Below, piece by piece: positions 30,328 through 37,000 of a stretch of 64,000 bases of DNA (position 1 is its first letter; every line of letters begins with the position of its first letter). The DNA lies in NCBI GenBank assembly GCA_017507005.1, contig JAFWBT010000026.1, positions 42,892 through 106,891 on the forward strand. Direction: 5' to 3'. The position numbers and the translations under genes are program-made. Below the pieces are notes generated by a model. That model did no database searches, was not told the DNA's origin, and worked only from the letters and a program-made list of their open reading frames with translations. The stretch is from Clostridia bacterium (lineage in GTDB: Bacteria; Bacillota; Clostridia; Christensenellales; Borkfalkiaceae).

Positions 30328-30370
30328 GATTTTGGCGAGATAGAATAAATAAAAACGTATGGAGAAAGTT

Positions 30371-31423
30371 ATGAAACAGACGAAACGCGTTTTGGTTGGC
30401 GGCGTAGCAGTCGGCGGCGGAGAACGGATAAAGATACAATCGATGACGACGACGAAAACGGCGGACGTGGAAAAGACGGTGGCGCAAATCACCGCGCTGG
30501 AAAACGCAGGCTGTGAAATCGTGCGCGTAGCGGTGGCGGACGAGGCGGATGCGTTGGCGATAAAAGCGGTCGTGTCCAAAATAAGAACGCCGCTCGTTGC
30601 CGATATCCATTTCTCGCCAAAGCTCGCCGTTATGGCGATAGAAAACGGCGCGAATAAAGTGCGTATCAATCCCGGTAATATCGGCGGCGAACAGGAAATA
30701 AAATACGTTGCGGATTGTATCAAGGCGCACGGGATTCCCGTTCGCGTCGGCTCGAACACGGGCAGTATTGAAAAGACGTTTTTGGAAAAGTACGGCAGGA
30801 GCGAACGCGCCTTGGTAGAGAGTGCGCTTTATAACGTCGGGATTTTGGAAAAATTCGGCGTGCGCGATATCGTTATTTCGGTAAAGGCGTCGGACGTACC
30901 GCTCACCGTGCGCGCGTATACGTTGCTTTCAGAGCAGACGGACTATCCTTTGCACCTTGGCGTAACGGAGGCAGGCACGATAGAGGCAGGCATTGTAAAG
31001 AGCGCCGTAGGGATAGGCAGTCTTTTATTAAACGGTATCGGGGACACTATTCGCGTGTCGTTGACGGACGATCCCGTGCGCGAAGTATACGCGGCGCAAA
31101 ATATCCTGCGCGCCTGCGGTATGGACGAGGAATTCGTCGAAGTGGTATCCTGCCCGACGTGCGGTCGCTGTACGTGGGAGAGTATGACGCTCGCGAATAA
31201 AGTGACGGAATTCGTGCGTCCGTATAAAAAACGCGCGAAAATCGCCGTAATGGGCTGTGTGGTAAACGGCCCGGGCGAGGCAAAGGACGCGGATTTGGGA
31301 ATAGCCGGCGGCAACGGTTTTTGTATGCTCTTTAAAAAAGGTGAAGTGTATAAAAAGGTGACCGCAAAAGATGCAGAAGAGGAATTTTTGAAGGAAATAA
31401 GGTTGTTGTTAGATGGCGAATAA
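30371..31423 (+). CDS. ispG: 4-hydroxy-3-methylbut-2-enyl diphosphate synthase
   Basis: [4Fe-4S] enzyme of the MEP isoprenoid pathway. The TIM-barrel half starts VGGVAVGGGERIKIQSMTTT in two blocks, with VADIHFSPKLA and NIGG. The cluster-binding half has SCPTCGRC and the third cysteine in MGCVVNGPGEAKDADLG. The ATG at 30371 is chosen over 30359 because GGAGA lies at 30361-30365. It gives 350 residues. The frame overlaps the next gene by 11 bases. It heads the conserved ispG-polC-rimP-nusA-infB order. Confidence 0.97.
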   Translation: MKQTKRVLVGGVAVGGGERIKIQSMTTTKTADVEKTVAQITALENAGCEIVRVAVADEADALAIKAVVSKIRTPLVADIHFSPKLAVMAIENGANKVRINPGNIGGEQEIKYVADCIKAHGIPVRVGSNTGSIEKTFLEKYGRSERALVESALYNVGILEKFGVRDIVISVKASDVPLTVRAYTLLSEQTDYPLHLGVTEAGTIEAGIVKSAVGIGSLLLNGIGDTIRVSLTDDPVREVYAAQNILRACGMDEEFVEVVSCPTCGRCTWESMTLANKVTEFVRPYKKRAKIAVMGCVVNGPGEAKDADLGIAGGNGFCMLFKKGEVYKKVTAKDAEEEFLKEIRLLLDGE

Positions 31424-32984
31424 ATTAGAACAGTACTTAGAAGAAATCCGTGGCGCGGACGGCTTAAAAAACGCGATTTTGTGCGGTATTTCCGTTCGTA
31501 AACGCGATCAGGCGGCGGAATTTTTCCTCGTCACGGATAAAACGTATACGTCGATAGAGGAAACGCGCGCAAGGGAAATCACGCAAAAATATCTCCCCGA
31601 CGGCTTTACGGCGTACGTGCGTATCGTCAAGCGTGTGCCTGATGAAAAGATAGTAAGAGAGAAAATATTAGAATATATTCGCAGTACGTTTCCTGCGGCT
31701 GCGGCGTTTTTGGAAGAGGAACATATCCACGTGGAAATGCTGGGTAGCGGCGCGAATTTTTACGTCGATATCGCCTCGGGTGAGCAATCGCTGTTTTCTT
31801 CGGGAAAAATACTCGACGAGGTAAGCAGGTATTTGTCGAGCGTGTATTGCGGCAGTTTTTACGGCAACGTTCGGCTGGTGGAAAAGACGCGCGACGAGAG
31901 CGTTTTAGACGAGTTTCCCGAGGTGGAAGAGAACGAGGACGCGCCCGTGGAAATTCGGCGTTTCCCTATCTGTGATTACGAAAAAATCGACGGCGTGGAC
32001 GAACCGCAAAAAACGGCGGTGTATATGGCGGACGCGCTGAACGTAGACGGCACGTATTCCATTTGCGGTACGGTGACGTATATCGAAGAAATCGAATACA
32101 CCAAACACAACGAAAAAACGGGCGAGGACGTAAAGAAAACACGTTTCTCTATTACGCTCACCGACGAAACGTTTTCTATGCGTATGACCTATTTCCCCAA
32201 GAAAGCGACGGTGGATAAGGTGCGCGAGATTAAGACGGGTGATAAGATTGTCGTGACGGGCAGTAACGAAGAATTTAAAGGCTCGAAATCGTTTAAGGCG
32301 GCGAAAATCAATTTCGGCGCGCCGCCCGAGGGCTTTACGCCCGAGGCGAGAAAGGGCAAGCCCGTACCCAAGGCATACCACACGGTATTCCCCGAAGAAT
32401 ACGTCGATTATACGCAGGCAGGGCTGTTTGACAACCTCAACAAGCCTGAGGATTTGAAAAAAGGCACGTTCGTCGTGTTCGACTTGGAAACGACGGGCTT
32501 GAATAACAATCCCGCGATGGGTAGGATGGACAAGATTATCGAAATCGGCGCGGTGAAAATCGTCGGCGGTGAGATGCGGGAAAAATTCTCCTCGTTTATC
32601 GCCTGCAAAGAACGTCTTTCGCCTGAAATTATCGATTTGACGGGTATTCACGACGAGGATTTGTACGGCGCGCCCGAGGTGGATAAGGTGTTGGCGGACT
32701 TCTTTAAATTTGCCGACGGGGCAATTCTCGTTGGGCATAACGTCGGCTTTGACTACCGTTTCGTGCATTATTACGGCGAGCAAAACGGCTATATGTTCGA
32801 TCATAAACAAATGGACACTTTACATTTAGCGCAAGAGGTGTTGCGCGGACTTTTGCCTAATTACAAACTCAATTCCGTAGCTGATTATTACGGTTTTACG
32901 TTTAATCATCATCGCGCGTTCGACGACGCGTGCGTTACGGCGAAAGTATTTATTGAGCTAGTAAAGGCGAAAGGGCATTTATAA
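31413..32984 (+). CDS. PolC-like protein reduced to N-terminal, OB and 3'-5' exonuclease domains
   Basis: The gene sits exactly where polC is expected but is only 523 residues, not about 1,400. Residues 1-165 resemble a PolC-type N-terminal region. Residues about 205-305 form an OB-like domain (CGTVTYIEEIEYTKHNEK, then ITLTDETFSMRMTYF). Residues about 345-520 are a DEDDh exonuclease with FVVFDLETTGL (Exo I), GHNVGFDYRF (Exo II) and HHRAFDDACVTA (Exo III). The PHP and polymerase modules are absent and a clean stop is present. It could serve as a stand-alone proofreading or repair exonuclease. No polymerase sequence was recognised in the next 3 kb. Confidence 0.8.
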   Translation: MANKLEQYLEEIRGADGLKNAILCGISVRKRDQAAEFFLVTDKTYTSIEETRAREITQKYLPDGFTAYVRIVKRVPDEKIVREKILEYIRSTFPAAAAFLEEEHIHVEMLGSGANFYVDIASGEQSLFSSGKILDEVSRYLSSVYCGSFYGNVRLVEKTRDESVLDEFPEVEENEDAPVEIRRFPICDYEKIDGVDEPQKTAVYMADALNVDGTYSICGTVTYIEEIEYTKHNEKTGEDVKKTRFSITLTDETFSMRMTYFPKKATVDKVREIKTGDKIVVTGSNEEFKGSKSFKAAKINFGAPPEGFTPEARKGKPVPKAYHTVFPEEYVDYTQAGLFDNLNKPEDLKKGTFVVFDLETTGLNNNPAMGRMDKIIEIGAVKIVGGEMREKFSSFIACKERLSPEIIDLTGIHDEDLYGAPEVDKVLADFFKFADGAILVGHNVGFDYRFVHYYGEQNGYMFDHKQMDTLHLAQEVLRGLLPNYKLNSVADYYGFTFNHHRAFDDACVTAKVFIELVKAKGHL

Positions 32985-33018: not shown

Positions 33019-34131
33019 ATGCAGGGCAGACGGACGAAAGTGTATTTAGAAAGGCTTGTAAAAGAAAAGAAAATCCCGTATATGGATATTCTCGTGCAAA
33101 GGGAACACGAACCCATATTGCGCCATTTTATTTCGCTGAACGGGCAGGCGACGGGCAAGGAACGGTTGTTTTTATATTCCGCGACTAAACCGATGACGGT
33201 GGCGTGCGCGTTGTCGCTGATAGAGGAAGGTCGGCTGTCGCTGGACGACGAAGTGTCGAAATATCTGCCTGCGTATGCGAATACGTTTTTAGAGGGCGGC
33301 GCGCCTACGAAAAATAAAATGACCGTGCGGCATCTTTTTACGATGTCGGGTGGGCTTTCTTATAACGTCAATACTCCTGCGGTGCAAAAGCTGTTGAAAG
33401 AAACGGACGGCAAAGCGGATACCGTGTCCCTCGTGCAGGCGTTCGTGAAAGAGCCTTTGCTCTTTGAACCGGGCGAGCGTTTTGAATATAGCCTTTGTCA
33501 CGACGTCTTGGCGGCGGTGGTGGAAGTGGTGGCGAAAAAACGCTTTTCGGAAGTGATGCAAGAGCGTGTATTCTCGCCCCTGGGTATGTCGAATACGGGT
33601 TTTCACACGCAAAACGACGCTCCGATGGAACGGCAATATTTGGCGGATAAATCGGGTAAAATCGTCGAAATAGAATGTGAAAATTTCTTGGTGCTGAGTG
33701 AAACTTACGACAGCGGCGGCGCAGGCGCAATCGGTTGCGTGGAGGATTATGCGAAATTTGCCGATGCAATGGCTTGCGGCGGTGTTGGCGCAAACGGCGC
33801 GAGGATTTTGAAGGAAGAAACGGTGGCGCTTATGCGGAGCAACACGCAGGGCTCGGCAGGTGTGGAGAGTACGTTTACCTGCGTGCAAGGCGAAGTGTAC
33901 GGCTATGGGCTTGGCGTGCGGACGAGAAAATACGCGACGGATTGGGGCTTGCCCGTGGGCGAGTTCGGTTGGGATGGTGCGGCAGGTATGTATTTGCTGG
34001 CAGACCCCGAACATAAGATTTCAGTGGTGGTCGGTATGCACGTAAGAGGTTGGCCGTACGTTATAAACGGCGAGCACTTGCGGCTTACGCAATGCGCCTA
34101 TGAGGATATGAAGGAAGAAGGCTTACTGTAA
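33019..34131 (+). CDS. Beta-lactamase-fold serine hydrolase (class C/esterase type)
   Basis: Serine hydrolase of the beta-lactamase/penicillin-binding-like superfamily, more likely an esterase or peptidase than a resistance enzyme. The nucleophile motif is S54-A-T-K57. The tyrosine motif is Y157-S-L, with Leu where Asn is usual. RHLFTMSGGL and FSPLGMSNTGF are family blocks. No signal peptide or membrane anchor is visible, so it seems cytoplasmic. The length is 370 residues. It starts 34 bases after the PolC-like gene, behind AAGGGGC. With the next gene it interrupts the conserved polC-rimP adjacency. Confidence 0.85.
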   Translation: MQGRRTKVYLERLVKEKKIPYMDILVQREHEPILRHFISLNGQATGKERLFLYSATKPMTVACALSLIEEGRLSLDDEVSKYLPAYANTFLEGGAPTKNKMTVRHLFTMSGGLSYNVNTPAVQKLLKETDGKADTVSLVQAFVKEPLLFEPGERFEYSLCHDVLAAVVEVVAKKRFSEVMQERVFSPLGMSNTGFHTQNDAPMERQYLADKSGKIVEIECENFLVLSETYDSGGAGAIGCVEDYAKFADAMACGGVGANGARILKEETVALMRSNTQGSAGVESTFTCVQGEVYGYGLGVRTRKYATDWGLPVGEFGWDGAAGMYLLADPEHKISVVVGMHVRGWPYVINGEHLRLTQCAYEDMKEEGLL

Positions 34132-34142
34132 AGGAAAAATTG

Positions 34143-34958
34143 ATGATGAAAAATGCAAAAAAGGTTTTGATAAGCGTGTTGGCAGTGCTGACGTTTGGCG
34201 TTTCGTATTTGACGGCTTGCGGCGCGGCGGGCAGCAACGCGAATAGCGGCGTGGAGAATAGCAATTCTTCTGTCTTAGAAAGGACGAGCGAGAGTGAAAC
34301 GGCTAGTTCATCGGATTTTACGAGCGATAGCGAAGAGGAAACGTCCTCTGAACTGTCCTCTGAATCGTCCTCTGAAAGCTCGCCCGAAACGGAAAGAGAG
34401 CCGAGCGAGGGGTTGGCTTACGAGTTGAGCGAAGACGAGGAATATTATATCGTGACGGGTATCGGTGATTGTACGGATGCGGACCTCGTTATTCCTGCAA
34501 CGTATGACGAGTTGCCCGTGAAAGAAATCGCGGAGAACGCCTTTTACGATGCTGACCGTTTAATGAGTGTAGTAATCGGCGACAATATTACAACGATTGG
34601 TGAGAGCGCGTTTTCCACTTGTAGCTGTATCACGAGCGTGACGTTGGGCAGTAGTGTCAAGACGATTGGCGTCAGCGCGTTCAACGCGTGTAAAGCCCTG
34701 ACGAGCGTGACAATCCCTAGCGGCGTTTTGGAGATTGGGGCGCACTCGTTTGGTTGGTGTAGTGGTTTGAAAGAGGTAACGATAGCGGATAGCGTGACGA
34801 AAATCGGGGATTCGGCGTTCGTGATGTGCGAAGCGTTGGAAACTATCACGTTCGAGGGCGGCGTAGAAAGCTGGACGGCGGTGGAAAAGGGCGCAAACTG
34901 GGCGTTTAGAATCGTTGCGACAAAGGTCGTGTGTAGCGACGGAGAAGGGGAGATATAA
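34143..34958 (+). CDS. Surface lipoprotein with BspA-like leucine-rich repeats
   Basis: A 271-residue secreted protein: signal peptide with lipobox LTAC (Cys near residue 22), a Ser/Glu-rich, repetitive linker (about 25-95, with repeated SSES/LSSES units), then about five LRR_5 units of the BspA type. Repeats such as DNITTIGESAFSTCSCITSV and KTIGVSAFNACKALTSV show the 23-residue period. Such proteins mediate surface contacts. The first ATG (34143) is chosen with AAGGA seven bases upstream. It begins 11 bases after the serine hydrolase gene and probably shares its transcript. Confidence 0.85.
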   Translation: MMKNAKKVLISVLAVLTFGVSYLTACGAAGSNANSGVENSNSSVLERTSESETASSSDFTSDSEEETSSELSSESSSESSPETEREPSEGLAYELSEDEEYYIVTGIGDCTDADLVIPATYDELPVKEIAENAFYDADRLMSVVIGDNITTIGESAFSTCSCITSVTLGSSVKTIGVSAFNACKALTSVTIPSGVLEIGAHSFGWCSGLKEVTIADSVTKIGDSAFVMCEALETITFEGGVESWTAVEKGANWAFRIVATKVVCSDGEGEI

Positions 34959-35282: not shown

Positions 35283-35753
35283 ATGAAAACGAAACCGATT
35301 ACGGACGTACAGGCGGCTTTGCAGCCTATCGCGGACGAAATGGAAATCGAGATTGTCGAGGTCGAATTTAAGCAAGGGAAAGAGCCTGCGCTCACCGTCT
35401 ATATCGATATGGAAGGCGGCGTCGATTTGAACGCTTGCGAGAAATTCCACCGCGCAATCGACCCGATTTTGGACGAACTCGACCCGACCTTTGGCGAGCC
35501 TTACACCCTCAACGTATCCAGCCCCGGCTTAGATAGGCCCTTGAAAACGGATCGCGATTATCAAAAATGTATGGGTAAAAAGGTAGAGGTAAAGCTGTTC
35601 GCGCCCTTGAAAGGCAAGAAATTTTTCGAGCTGACGTTGAAAGGTCACGACGAGAACTGCGTCTACCTTGACGACAACGGCGAAGAGCTGAAATTGGAAA
35701 AGGCGAAGATTGCAAAGATTTGTCGCGCGATTGATTTCGACGGCTTGGTGTAA
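35283..35753 (+). CDS. rimP: Ribosome maturation factor RimP
   Basis: Needed for 30S subunit maturation. The N-terminal alpha/beta domain has VEFKQGKEPALTVYIDMEGG and DLNACEKFHRAI. The SSPGLDRPLKTDRDYQKCMGK block and the C-terminal SH3-like domain with VYLDDNGEEL are diagnostic. The length of 156 residues is normal. AAGGGGA precedes the ATG. First gene of the transcription/translation operon after a structured leader. Confidence 0.96.
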   Translation: MKTKPITDVQAALQPIADEMEIEIVEVEFKQGKEPALTVYIDMEGGVDLNACEKFHRAIDPILDELDPTFGEPYTLNVSSPGLDRPLKTDRDYQKCMGKKVEVKLFAPLKGKKFFELTLKGHDENCVYLDDNGEELKLEKAKIAKICRAIDFDGLV

Positions 35754-35878: not shown

Positions 35879-37000
35879 ATGGAAAACAAGGAGTTTTTTG
35901 CGGCGTTCACCGATTTGGTAAGAGAAAAGGGGATTAGCGAAGAAGCGTTTATTCAAACGCTGGAAAACGCGCTTGCGTCCGCGTACAAAAAACAGTTTGA
36001 AGGCGGTGCGGAGATTAACGTTACGCTTGATGCGGAAAAGGGTTTAATCGAATTCAAGGCTACCCGTTACGTCGTAGAAGAAGTGGAAGACAAGGATAAG
36101 GAAATTTCTCTCGAAGACGCGCAGGAATTGAATCCTGATTACAAAGTGGGCGACACCATCGTTACCACCTTTATTCCTAAAGACTTCGGCCGTATTGCGG
36201 CGCAGACGGCAAAGCAGGTACTTTTGCAAAAACTGCACGAGACCGAACGCGACAACACGTTCTCCGAATTTTCGGATAAAGAGGGCGAGCTGATGGAAGG
36301 CGTTATCCGTAAGATGGACGAAAGAAACATCTACGTAGAGCTCGGCGATAAGAAAATTGAGGGCGTTATGCCCCCGCAGGACCGCGTTCCCACCGAAAGA
36401 TACGCCGTTGGCGACCGTTTGAAGGTGTTCGTAAAACGCGTGAAAAACAGCGGTAAAAATTCGCAAATCGTCGTATCCCGTTCGGCGCAGGGCTTGGTAA
36501 AGAAACTGTTTGAAGAACAAGTGCCTGAAATCGCGCAGGGTATCGTTGAGATTAAAGAAATCGCTCGTGAAGCAGGTCATCGTACGAAGATGGCAATCGT
36601 TTCCAACGACGCGCGCGTGGACGCTGTCGGCGCTTGCGTTGGTAATCGCGGCGCGAGAGTAAACGCTGTCGTGGAAGAACTCGGCGGTGAAAAGATTGAT
36701 ATTATCCTTTGGAACGAAGATCCTTTGGCGTTCATTTATAAGGCTTTGTCGCCTGCAACGGTGTTGTCGGTAACGGCGAAAGGCGAACGCAGCGCGATTG
36801 CTATCGTGCCTGATGAAAAGCTGTCGCTTGCTATCGGTAGAGACGGTCAAAACGCGCGTTTGGCGGCAAGACTTACGGGCTGGAAGATTGACGTAAAGAA
36901 CGCGTCCTCGCCCGAGGCTGCGGAAATCCTTGCGGCTATGGAAGCGGAGGAAGAAACGGGCGTTGAAGAATCCTTCGAGGACGAAACCATCGAAGAATAA
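35879..37000 (+). CDS. nusA: Transcription termination/antitermination factor NusA
   Basis: RNA polymerase-associated factor controlling pausing, termination and antitermination. The N-terminal domain (1-130) binds polymerase. An S1 domain (about 135-200) starts GELMEGVIRKMDERNIYVELG in two blocks. Two KH domains follow with ACVGNRGARVNAVVEEL and AIGRDGQNARLAARLTG. It ends in a short acidic tail and lacks the C-terminal acidic repeats of E. coli, as usual in Firmicutes. The length is 373 residues. CAGGAG precedes the ATG after a 125-base spacer. Confidence 0.97.
   Translation: MENKEFFAAFTDLVREKGISEEAFIQTLENALASAYKKQFEGGAEINVTLDAEKGLIEFKATRYVVEEVEDKDKEISLEDAQELNPDYKVGDTIVTTFIPKDFGRIAAQTAKQVLLQKLHETERDNTFSEFSDKEGELMEGVIRKMDERNIYVELGDKKIEGVMPPQDRVPTERYAVGDRLKVFVKRVKNSGKNSQIVVSRSAQGLVKKLFEEQVPEIAQGIVEIKEIAREAGHRTKMAIVSNDARVDAVGACVGNRGARVNAVVEELGGEKIDIILWNEDPLAFIYKALSPATVLSVTAKGERSAIAIVPDEKLSLAIGRDGQNARLAARLTGWKIDVKNASSPEAAEILAAMEAEEETGVEESFEDETIEE

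Follow-up and report, generated by a model that had tools for sequence, protein, structure and literature searches.

The polC locus and its genes

The window considered here is a stretch of 64,000 nucleotides from the genome of a Clostridia bacterium. The ispG-polC-rimP-nusA position is shared by a gene of this window which codes for a protein of 523 amino acids, hereafter called the short form, and its ATG start lies within the 3' end of ispG, so that both genes overlap (Table 1). An earlier note on this DNA had described a gene of 523 residues between ispG and rimP; the open reading frame is indeed present and adjoins ispG, but two more genes are inserted before rimP. The frames that follow rimP are those which we take to be nusA, ylxR, ylxQ and infB. 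A beta-lactamase-fold neighbour was also observed in three relatives of the genus (L005, L021 and L069); in four others (L032 and L070-L072) rimP and nusA were found, and there was no match to the beta-lactamase fold.

Table 1. Features of the window around the short form of PolC (NTD, N-terminal domain).
Feature	Position	Strand	Description or evidence
Short-form PolC	31413..32984	+	523 aa: NTD, OB fold and linker ahead of a DEDDh exonuclease; PHP and polymerase absent
Region homologous to the PolC N-terminal domain, residues 1-181	31413..31955	+	hhalign
OB fold, residues 216-299	32058..32309	+	PF01336, 3.2e-05
Candidate clamp-binding-type motif QAGLF in the linker, residues 335-339	32415..32429	+	QL[S/D]LF / QxxLF consensus
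RNase_T/DnaQ-type exonuclease domain, residues 354-513	32472..32951	+	Pfam, 8.4e-34
ispG (GcpE), upstream neighbour	30359..31423	+	PF04551, 2e-140
Beta-lactamase/CubicO-fold gene, between short form and rimP	33019..34131	+	PF00144, 2.2e-52
BspA-type LRR protein gene, second insert before rimP	34140..34958	+	PF13306, 3.1e-30
rimP, canonical downstream neighbour	35283..35753	+	PF02576, 2.3e-19
nusA, next in the canonical block	35879..37000	+	Open reading frame; homologues share the gene order in other families

RNase_T is the only Pfam domain above the cut-off in the 523-aa protein. The OB fold is found just below it (24.2 bits, the Pfam cut-off being 27), and the scan gave no PHP, no polymerase domain and no PF07733. 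The best NCBIfam model is that of PolC; its match lies in the exonuclease and scores 150 bits, the cut-off being 873. The PolC model TIGR01405 gives 135 bits, where 1043 are required. The DnaQ model TIGR00573 reaches 97.4 bits, above its domain cut-off of 71.5, with the PolC models scoring higher, and TIGR01406 (DnaQ/epsilon) gives 73.3 bits against a cut-off of 222.7. The best matches among solved structures are PolC chains. When compared by hhalign, the NTD is collinear with the NTDs of PolCs from the same order (1-181 with 1-189; 97.3%, E 1.7e-11), the NTD and OB fold together match those of PolC at 99.6% (E 6e-25) and the whole short form matches PolC at 100% (2.3e-69). The exonuclease is not inserted in a PHP domain, and the linker occupies the place of the first PHP part of PolC, as located in a comparison with PolC that included 54 non-identical sequences. 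These alignments and profile searches establish that the gene descends from polC and has been reduced to the NTD, the OB fold and the DEDDh exonuclease. What the earlier note had read from the window is thus borne out: the PHP and polymerase modules are lost (Pfam, polymerase-core and PolC-model searches), the N-terminal region and the OB fold are present and homologous to those of PolC, and the exonuclease motifs are all in place (D357, E359, D447, H500 and D505).

Conservation and distribution within the order

A protein search in 60 relatives and the own genome gave a match in all 61. As for the earlier question of whether relatives share the 523-residue form, it was found in the 36 genomes of the same genus that were searched besides the own one, with frames of 511-544 aa in 35 of them and a frame cut at the contig end in the last one (G020), and also in other families. 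Among 24 genomes of other families of the order, 13 contain a long PolC (partial in G042) and 11 the short form (G038, G041, G043, G044, G045, G049, G051, G053, G054, G055 and G059). The short form follows ispG in the ten stretches inspected (L056-L065), seven of which also include rimP; in the 12 stretches with PolC (L106-L117; frames of 1,317-1,517 aa) ispG was found in ten and rimP in seven. The place after ispG is also occupied by the short form in ten more families, and sister families carry PolC there. In G051 the short form follows ispG and the next gene reads as ileS. Three exonuclease proteins (L066, L067 and L068) are not the short form and were dropped; no ispG was found in their stretches.

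The short form is under purifying selection, with dN of 0.16-0.22 against dS of 1.3-1.7 in three pairs, and no frame-breaking changes were seen in the members of the genus. These results, together with the conserved residues, agree with the earlier opinion that the gene is not obviously decayed. Besides, a misassembly is excluded, as all searched members of the genus and further families have the same form. The possibility that the short form is fused to another protein was also considered and rejected, since the extra length of seven of the nine long frames (560-759 aa) is open frame upstream of the start; the nine are the frames above 557 aa among the 150 listed, G309 and G287 being left out.

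The order was sampled with 297 genomes, namely the own genome and genomes at least 90% complete. PolC (TIGR01405, 1e-60) was found in 91 of them, the PolC-bearing families being f2, f4, f5, f11, f13, f15, f17, f21, f23, f25, f28 and f30, and was not found in the other 206. Matches to an NTD-OB profile (A2), derived from 23 short forms, were obtained in 281 of the 297 genomes at 1e-3: 202 of the 206 PolC-less genomes match at 7.2e-18 or better, and of the 91 genomes with PolC 77 give weak matches (2.0e-17 at best) and 14 none. The frames of the short form measure 438-759 aa in 150 genomes and 489-563 aa in the other 52. Four PolC-less genomes are left without a short form, two of short-form families (G295 and G302) and two of the PolC family f11 (G071 and G321), possibly due to missing sequence; the weak NTD-OB match of G302 lies in a 1,239-aa frame which is probably its DnaE.

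PF07733 is present in 293 of the 297 genomes, mostly with one match where the short form is found and with three where PolC is found. Eleven short-form genomes have two matches each (counted by eye), and at 1e-10 none was obtained in G073, G143, G237 and G240, all of them from short-form families. In G305 the two matches, located on contigs C15 and C16, have identical score and frame length and represent either a duplicated DnaE or an assembly duplicate. A second, partial match (2.0e-16) was observed in G016, a genus member with 6% contamination, on contig C22:18545-18901.

Family f26 has small genomes (about 0.8-1.3 Mb). None of the 11 stretches from this family (L150-L160) showed an ispG next to the short form; perhaps ispG has been lost or moved there. 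In nine of them rimP or nusA lies near the short form, once on the opposite strand. Those f26 genomes of 0.8-0.9 Mb that are 100% complete (for instance G062 and G083) contain one DnaE, the short form and no PolC, so that missing contigs do not explain the pattern. A class sample of 393 genomes, which includes members of the order, gave no short form from any other order at 1e-20; apart from the short forms of the order, this threshold is reached by two long frames (1,217 and 1,022 aa), putatively PolC. The short form is known from 15 families, 14 of which were examined in detail. Most simply, polC shed the PHP and the polymerase core a single time, in the common ancestor of a large clade of uncultured gut Clostridia belonging to one order.

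Linker motif, exonuclease site and the remaining DnaE

The consensus for clamp binding has been given as QL[S/D]LF or QxxLF (PMC12309361). The QAGLF of the linker fits a clamp-binding-type pattern with Q at position 1, a hydrophobic residue at position 4 and F or L at position 5. Q335 is among nine invariant or nearly invariant columns of a 23-row cross-family alignment, and other stretches of the linker, unlike this motif, differ strongly between families. The strict pattern Q..[LMIF][FL] was looked for in 84 short forms of 14 families, taken from chosen loci (13 from the own genus, 11 from the first round and 60 more). It is present in the linker of 65 of these 84 proteins, which are related and thus not independent, and in 13 of the 14 families; shuffled linkers carry it in 3.0 cases on average and in 10 at most (2000 runs), and other 50-aa windows of the same proteins in 28 of 709 cases. 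The 19 proteins without the strict motif belong to f1 (3/28), f3 (2/6), f6 (4/6), f16 (5/5), f19 (4/6) and f29 (1/7), and the site reads, for example, VKSVF in f1 and IKDNLF or VKTDLF in f6. It should be noted that QAGLF carries a glycine at position 3, which is reported to weaken clamp binding in E. coli (PMC12309361).

The 12 full PolCs examined have, without exception, a Q-x-x-hydrophobic-F/L motif at the C-terminus, which corresponds to the known clamp motif of this polymerase (PMC12309361) and which is gone from the short form along with the polymerase. No such motif exists in PolC in the 60 residues before the PHP domain (0/12) or between PHP and exonuclease (0/9, the start of the exonuclease not being located in three others).

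The five DEDDh residues are invariant in 24 sequences of the genus, and the site is intact in 74 of the 84 short forms. In the other ten, which are all five proteins from f16 and five of the six from f19 (L065, L121, L180-L183, L185 and L187-L189), the exonuclease site is decayed. Nevertheless these proteins keep their length, follow ispG, match the short-form profile and preserve the NTD-OB body. The loss of the site in ten proteins indicates that proofreading is not the sole function, and the persistence of the body in f16 and f19 after the active site has gone points to a role of this body which does not need the exonuclease. Most of their linkers do not fit the strict motif, reading QMNFV, QVNFV, QINFV (twice) and QMDFT in the five dead-site proteins of f19, and QLSFA, QLTLG, QLSLD, QIRFD and QMGFD in f16.

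Other exonucleases have been looked for as well. In four genomes which are 90-97% complete (G043, G049, G053 and G059) no RNase_T-family match other than the short form was obtained at 1e-5, and in most genomes of the genus RNase_T matches a further frame, of about 290-380 aa. The own genome has one such further match at 1e-5, a protein of 320 aa whose N-terminal domain resembles an exonuclease (L214:831-1793). The search related to the dead-site proteins gave DnaQ-like proteins of 193 aa in G054 and 192 aa in G051; as G041, whose short form is intact, also has one, a possible replacement of the dead exonuclease by a DnaQ-like protein follows no clear pattern.

The own genome (33 contigs, 71% complete) contains a single PF07733 match, a DnaE in a frame of 1,242 aa with a PHP domain at its start, and the PolC profile at E 10 retrieves only the short form, this DnaE and a weak match of 371 aa. 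The earlier note had proposed to search for another polC and for dnaE types, and had named a full-length PolC elsewhere as contrary evidence; only DnaE was found, and no second PolC, in the 71% of the genome that is available.

A set of 28 DnaE sequences was analysed, 18 of them from genomes with the short form and 10 from genomes with PolC. The signature of the PHP domain, given in the literature as HHDHEH[C/H]DH (PMC12926913), is intact in the 26 sequences that cover it fully (G055 and G050 are incomplete there). A decayed PHP of DnaE as the reason for keeping the exonuclease was therefore not seen, and DnaE may proofread itself. The clamp motif Q-x-x-hydrophobic-F is present in 27 of the 28 sequences, G059 reading QMFLN. 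From these PHP and clamp-motif signatures, rather than from a reference tree, the DnaE would be of the DnaE1 type. The maximum-likelihood tree of DnaE (27 rows, region about 475-507 left out, no outside root) has one branch, supported by 100/100, that splits 17 short-form genomes from the 10 PolC genomes, which in this unrooted tree fits one loss. The DnaE of short-form genomes (L122 and others) has extra residues around 475-507 (G000 numbering) compared with PolC-bearing sister families, possibly a co-adaptation.

Possible role and relation to known replicases

The short form shares with the PolC-type DNA polymerase III of B. subtilis the locus, the NTD and the OB fold, and its DEDDh exonuclease is closest to that of PolC; it differs in the absence of PHP, polymerase core and C-terminal clamp motif, and has instead a clamp-type motif in the linker. 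It is a PolC by descent, but its architecture lacks two of the features that define PolC. On the other hand, DnaQ/epsilon of E. coli Pol III is likewise a DEDDh exonuclease encoded apart from the one DnaE that it accompanies, and likewise has an internal clamp-type motif; the short form may work in a similar way, although it descends from PolC and carries the NTD and the OB fold. In epsilon the clamp motif is located behind the exonuclease core, and in the short form before the exonuclease.

Other modular losses have been described. PolCs of Clostridia without the exonuclease insertion exist (PMC3919608), which is the reciprocal case, since there the polymerase remains and the exonuclease has gone. 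Clostridia with DnaE1 only have also been noted, likewise with a single DnaE as sole replicase, and nothing is said, in the passages dealing with them, of a front part of PolC that has been kept (PMC3919608). In that survey fragments without an intact polymerase site were set aside, and the short form would therefore be hidden there. Standalone homologues of the 5'-3' exonuclease of Pol I are another example of a nuclease outliving its polymerase, but they belong to a different polymerase family and a different type of nuclease (PMC12926913). The replicase arrangements recognised are DnaE1 only, PolC with DnaE1 and PolC with DnaE3 (PMC12926913), and the loss of PolC in Actinobacteria has been discussed (PMC3774996). 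The titles and abstract openings obtained by literature searches contain no description of a polymerase-less PolC, and none of the six phrases looked for is present in PMC4070872.

On balance, the short form is probably a polC remnant kept as a separate replisome subunit, that is, a clamp-tethered exonuclease that serves DnaE in trans, with an NTD-OB body that has a further role. The protein would bind the sliding clamp through QAGLF, the NTD-OB body would touch both single-stranded DNA and the clamp loader, and the DEDDh exonuclease would be brought onto the 3' end made by DnaE for proofreading in trans. Epsilon works in this way for the DnaE of E. coli, and PolC probably does so in B. subtilis, where its exonuclease is believed to correct the errors of DnaE (PMC11890065). 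The NTD of PolC has a relative in domain V of tau, and an interaction of this NTD with the clamp loader has been proposed (PMC3919608). The body would also have a role independent of the exonuclease. The chief doubt about proofreading in trans is that DnaE may proofread by means of its own PHP, and the second RNase_T protein of about 290-380 aa present in most genomes of the genus could act instead.

In a rather unlikely alternative, the short form would be a clamp-using exonuclease for repair or primer processing and DnaE would proofread itself via PHP. The intact PHP signature in 26 of 26 DnaE sequences, the maintenance of the gene in the ten proteins without exonuclease site and the clamp-type motif, which fits repair factors as well, are in its favour; the descent from a replicative proofreader at the same locus, and the lack of any other RNase_T-family match in the four genomes at least 90% complete, argue against it. 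It also seems unlikely that the main function resides in the body, as an adaptor of clamp, clamp loader and single-stranded DNA that replaces PolC in the replisome, the exonuclease being secondary. Such an adaptor would explain why f16 (5/5) and f19 (5/6) keep length, place after ispG and body without the catalytic residues, with linkers that still read QLSFA, QLTLG or QLSLD in three of the five f16 proteins and QMNFV, QVNFV, QINFV or QMDFT in f19, and it agrees with the clamp-loader contact proposed for the PolC NTD (PMC3919608), but the full DEDDh site is kept in 74 of the 84 proteins and the binding itself is a prediction from the motif.

The earlier note had offered two explanations, a re-purposed stand-alone proofreading exonuclease and a split replicase, and the former is the better one. 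The gene stops at the point at which the polymerase part would start, which could suggest a polymerase half of PolC located elsewhere. This split replicase is rejected as very improbable, given that the search of the genome for C-family polymerases gave just one, a DnaE that has a PHP of its own, that the PolC profile at E 10 adds just the weak 371-aa match, and that PolC was not found in 206 of the 297 genomes of the order. A decaying relic, a pseudogene or an artefact of an assembly that is 71% complete and in 33 contigs is hardly credible, because the same form is found in the 36 other genus members and in 84 sequences from 14 families, dN is much below dS and the catalytic residues are kept in 74 of the 84.

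The extent of the short form, which is clade-wide and ancient, the clamp-type motif of its linker and the survival of the body in lineages with a dead exonuclease site go beyond what the earlier note had recognised. The genomics is solid; the function is what we infer from it. It is conceivable, though somewhat short of probable, that a fourth bacterial replicase arrangement exists, in which DnaE works with a polymerase-less PolC as a clamp-bound replisome subunit, the NTD-OB body being itself a structural component and the exonuclease an add-on that can be separated from it; the lineages that keep the body after the loss of the active site argue for more than proofreading. Annotation is affected, with an exonuclease gene sitting at the polC locus, and so are surveys that count replicases. 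The reasoning on PolC as a drug target is affected too, because no PolC polymerase was found in bacteria with the short form. The PolC and DnaE1 system of Clostridia has been described as experimentally uncharacterised, and it has been asked whether DnaE1 normally replicates the genome (PMC3919608). The short form provides a natural dissection of this system, in which the PolC polymerase has been removed and the NTD and OB fold kept, usually with the exonuclease, across 15 families, and this yields a testable prediction on which part of PolC matters. If the proposed arrangement is true, the polymerase of PolC would be the dispensable part in the PolC and DnaE1 system of Clostridia, and its front half the indispensable one.
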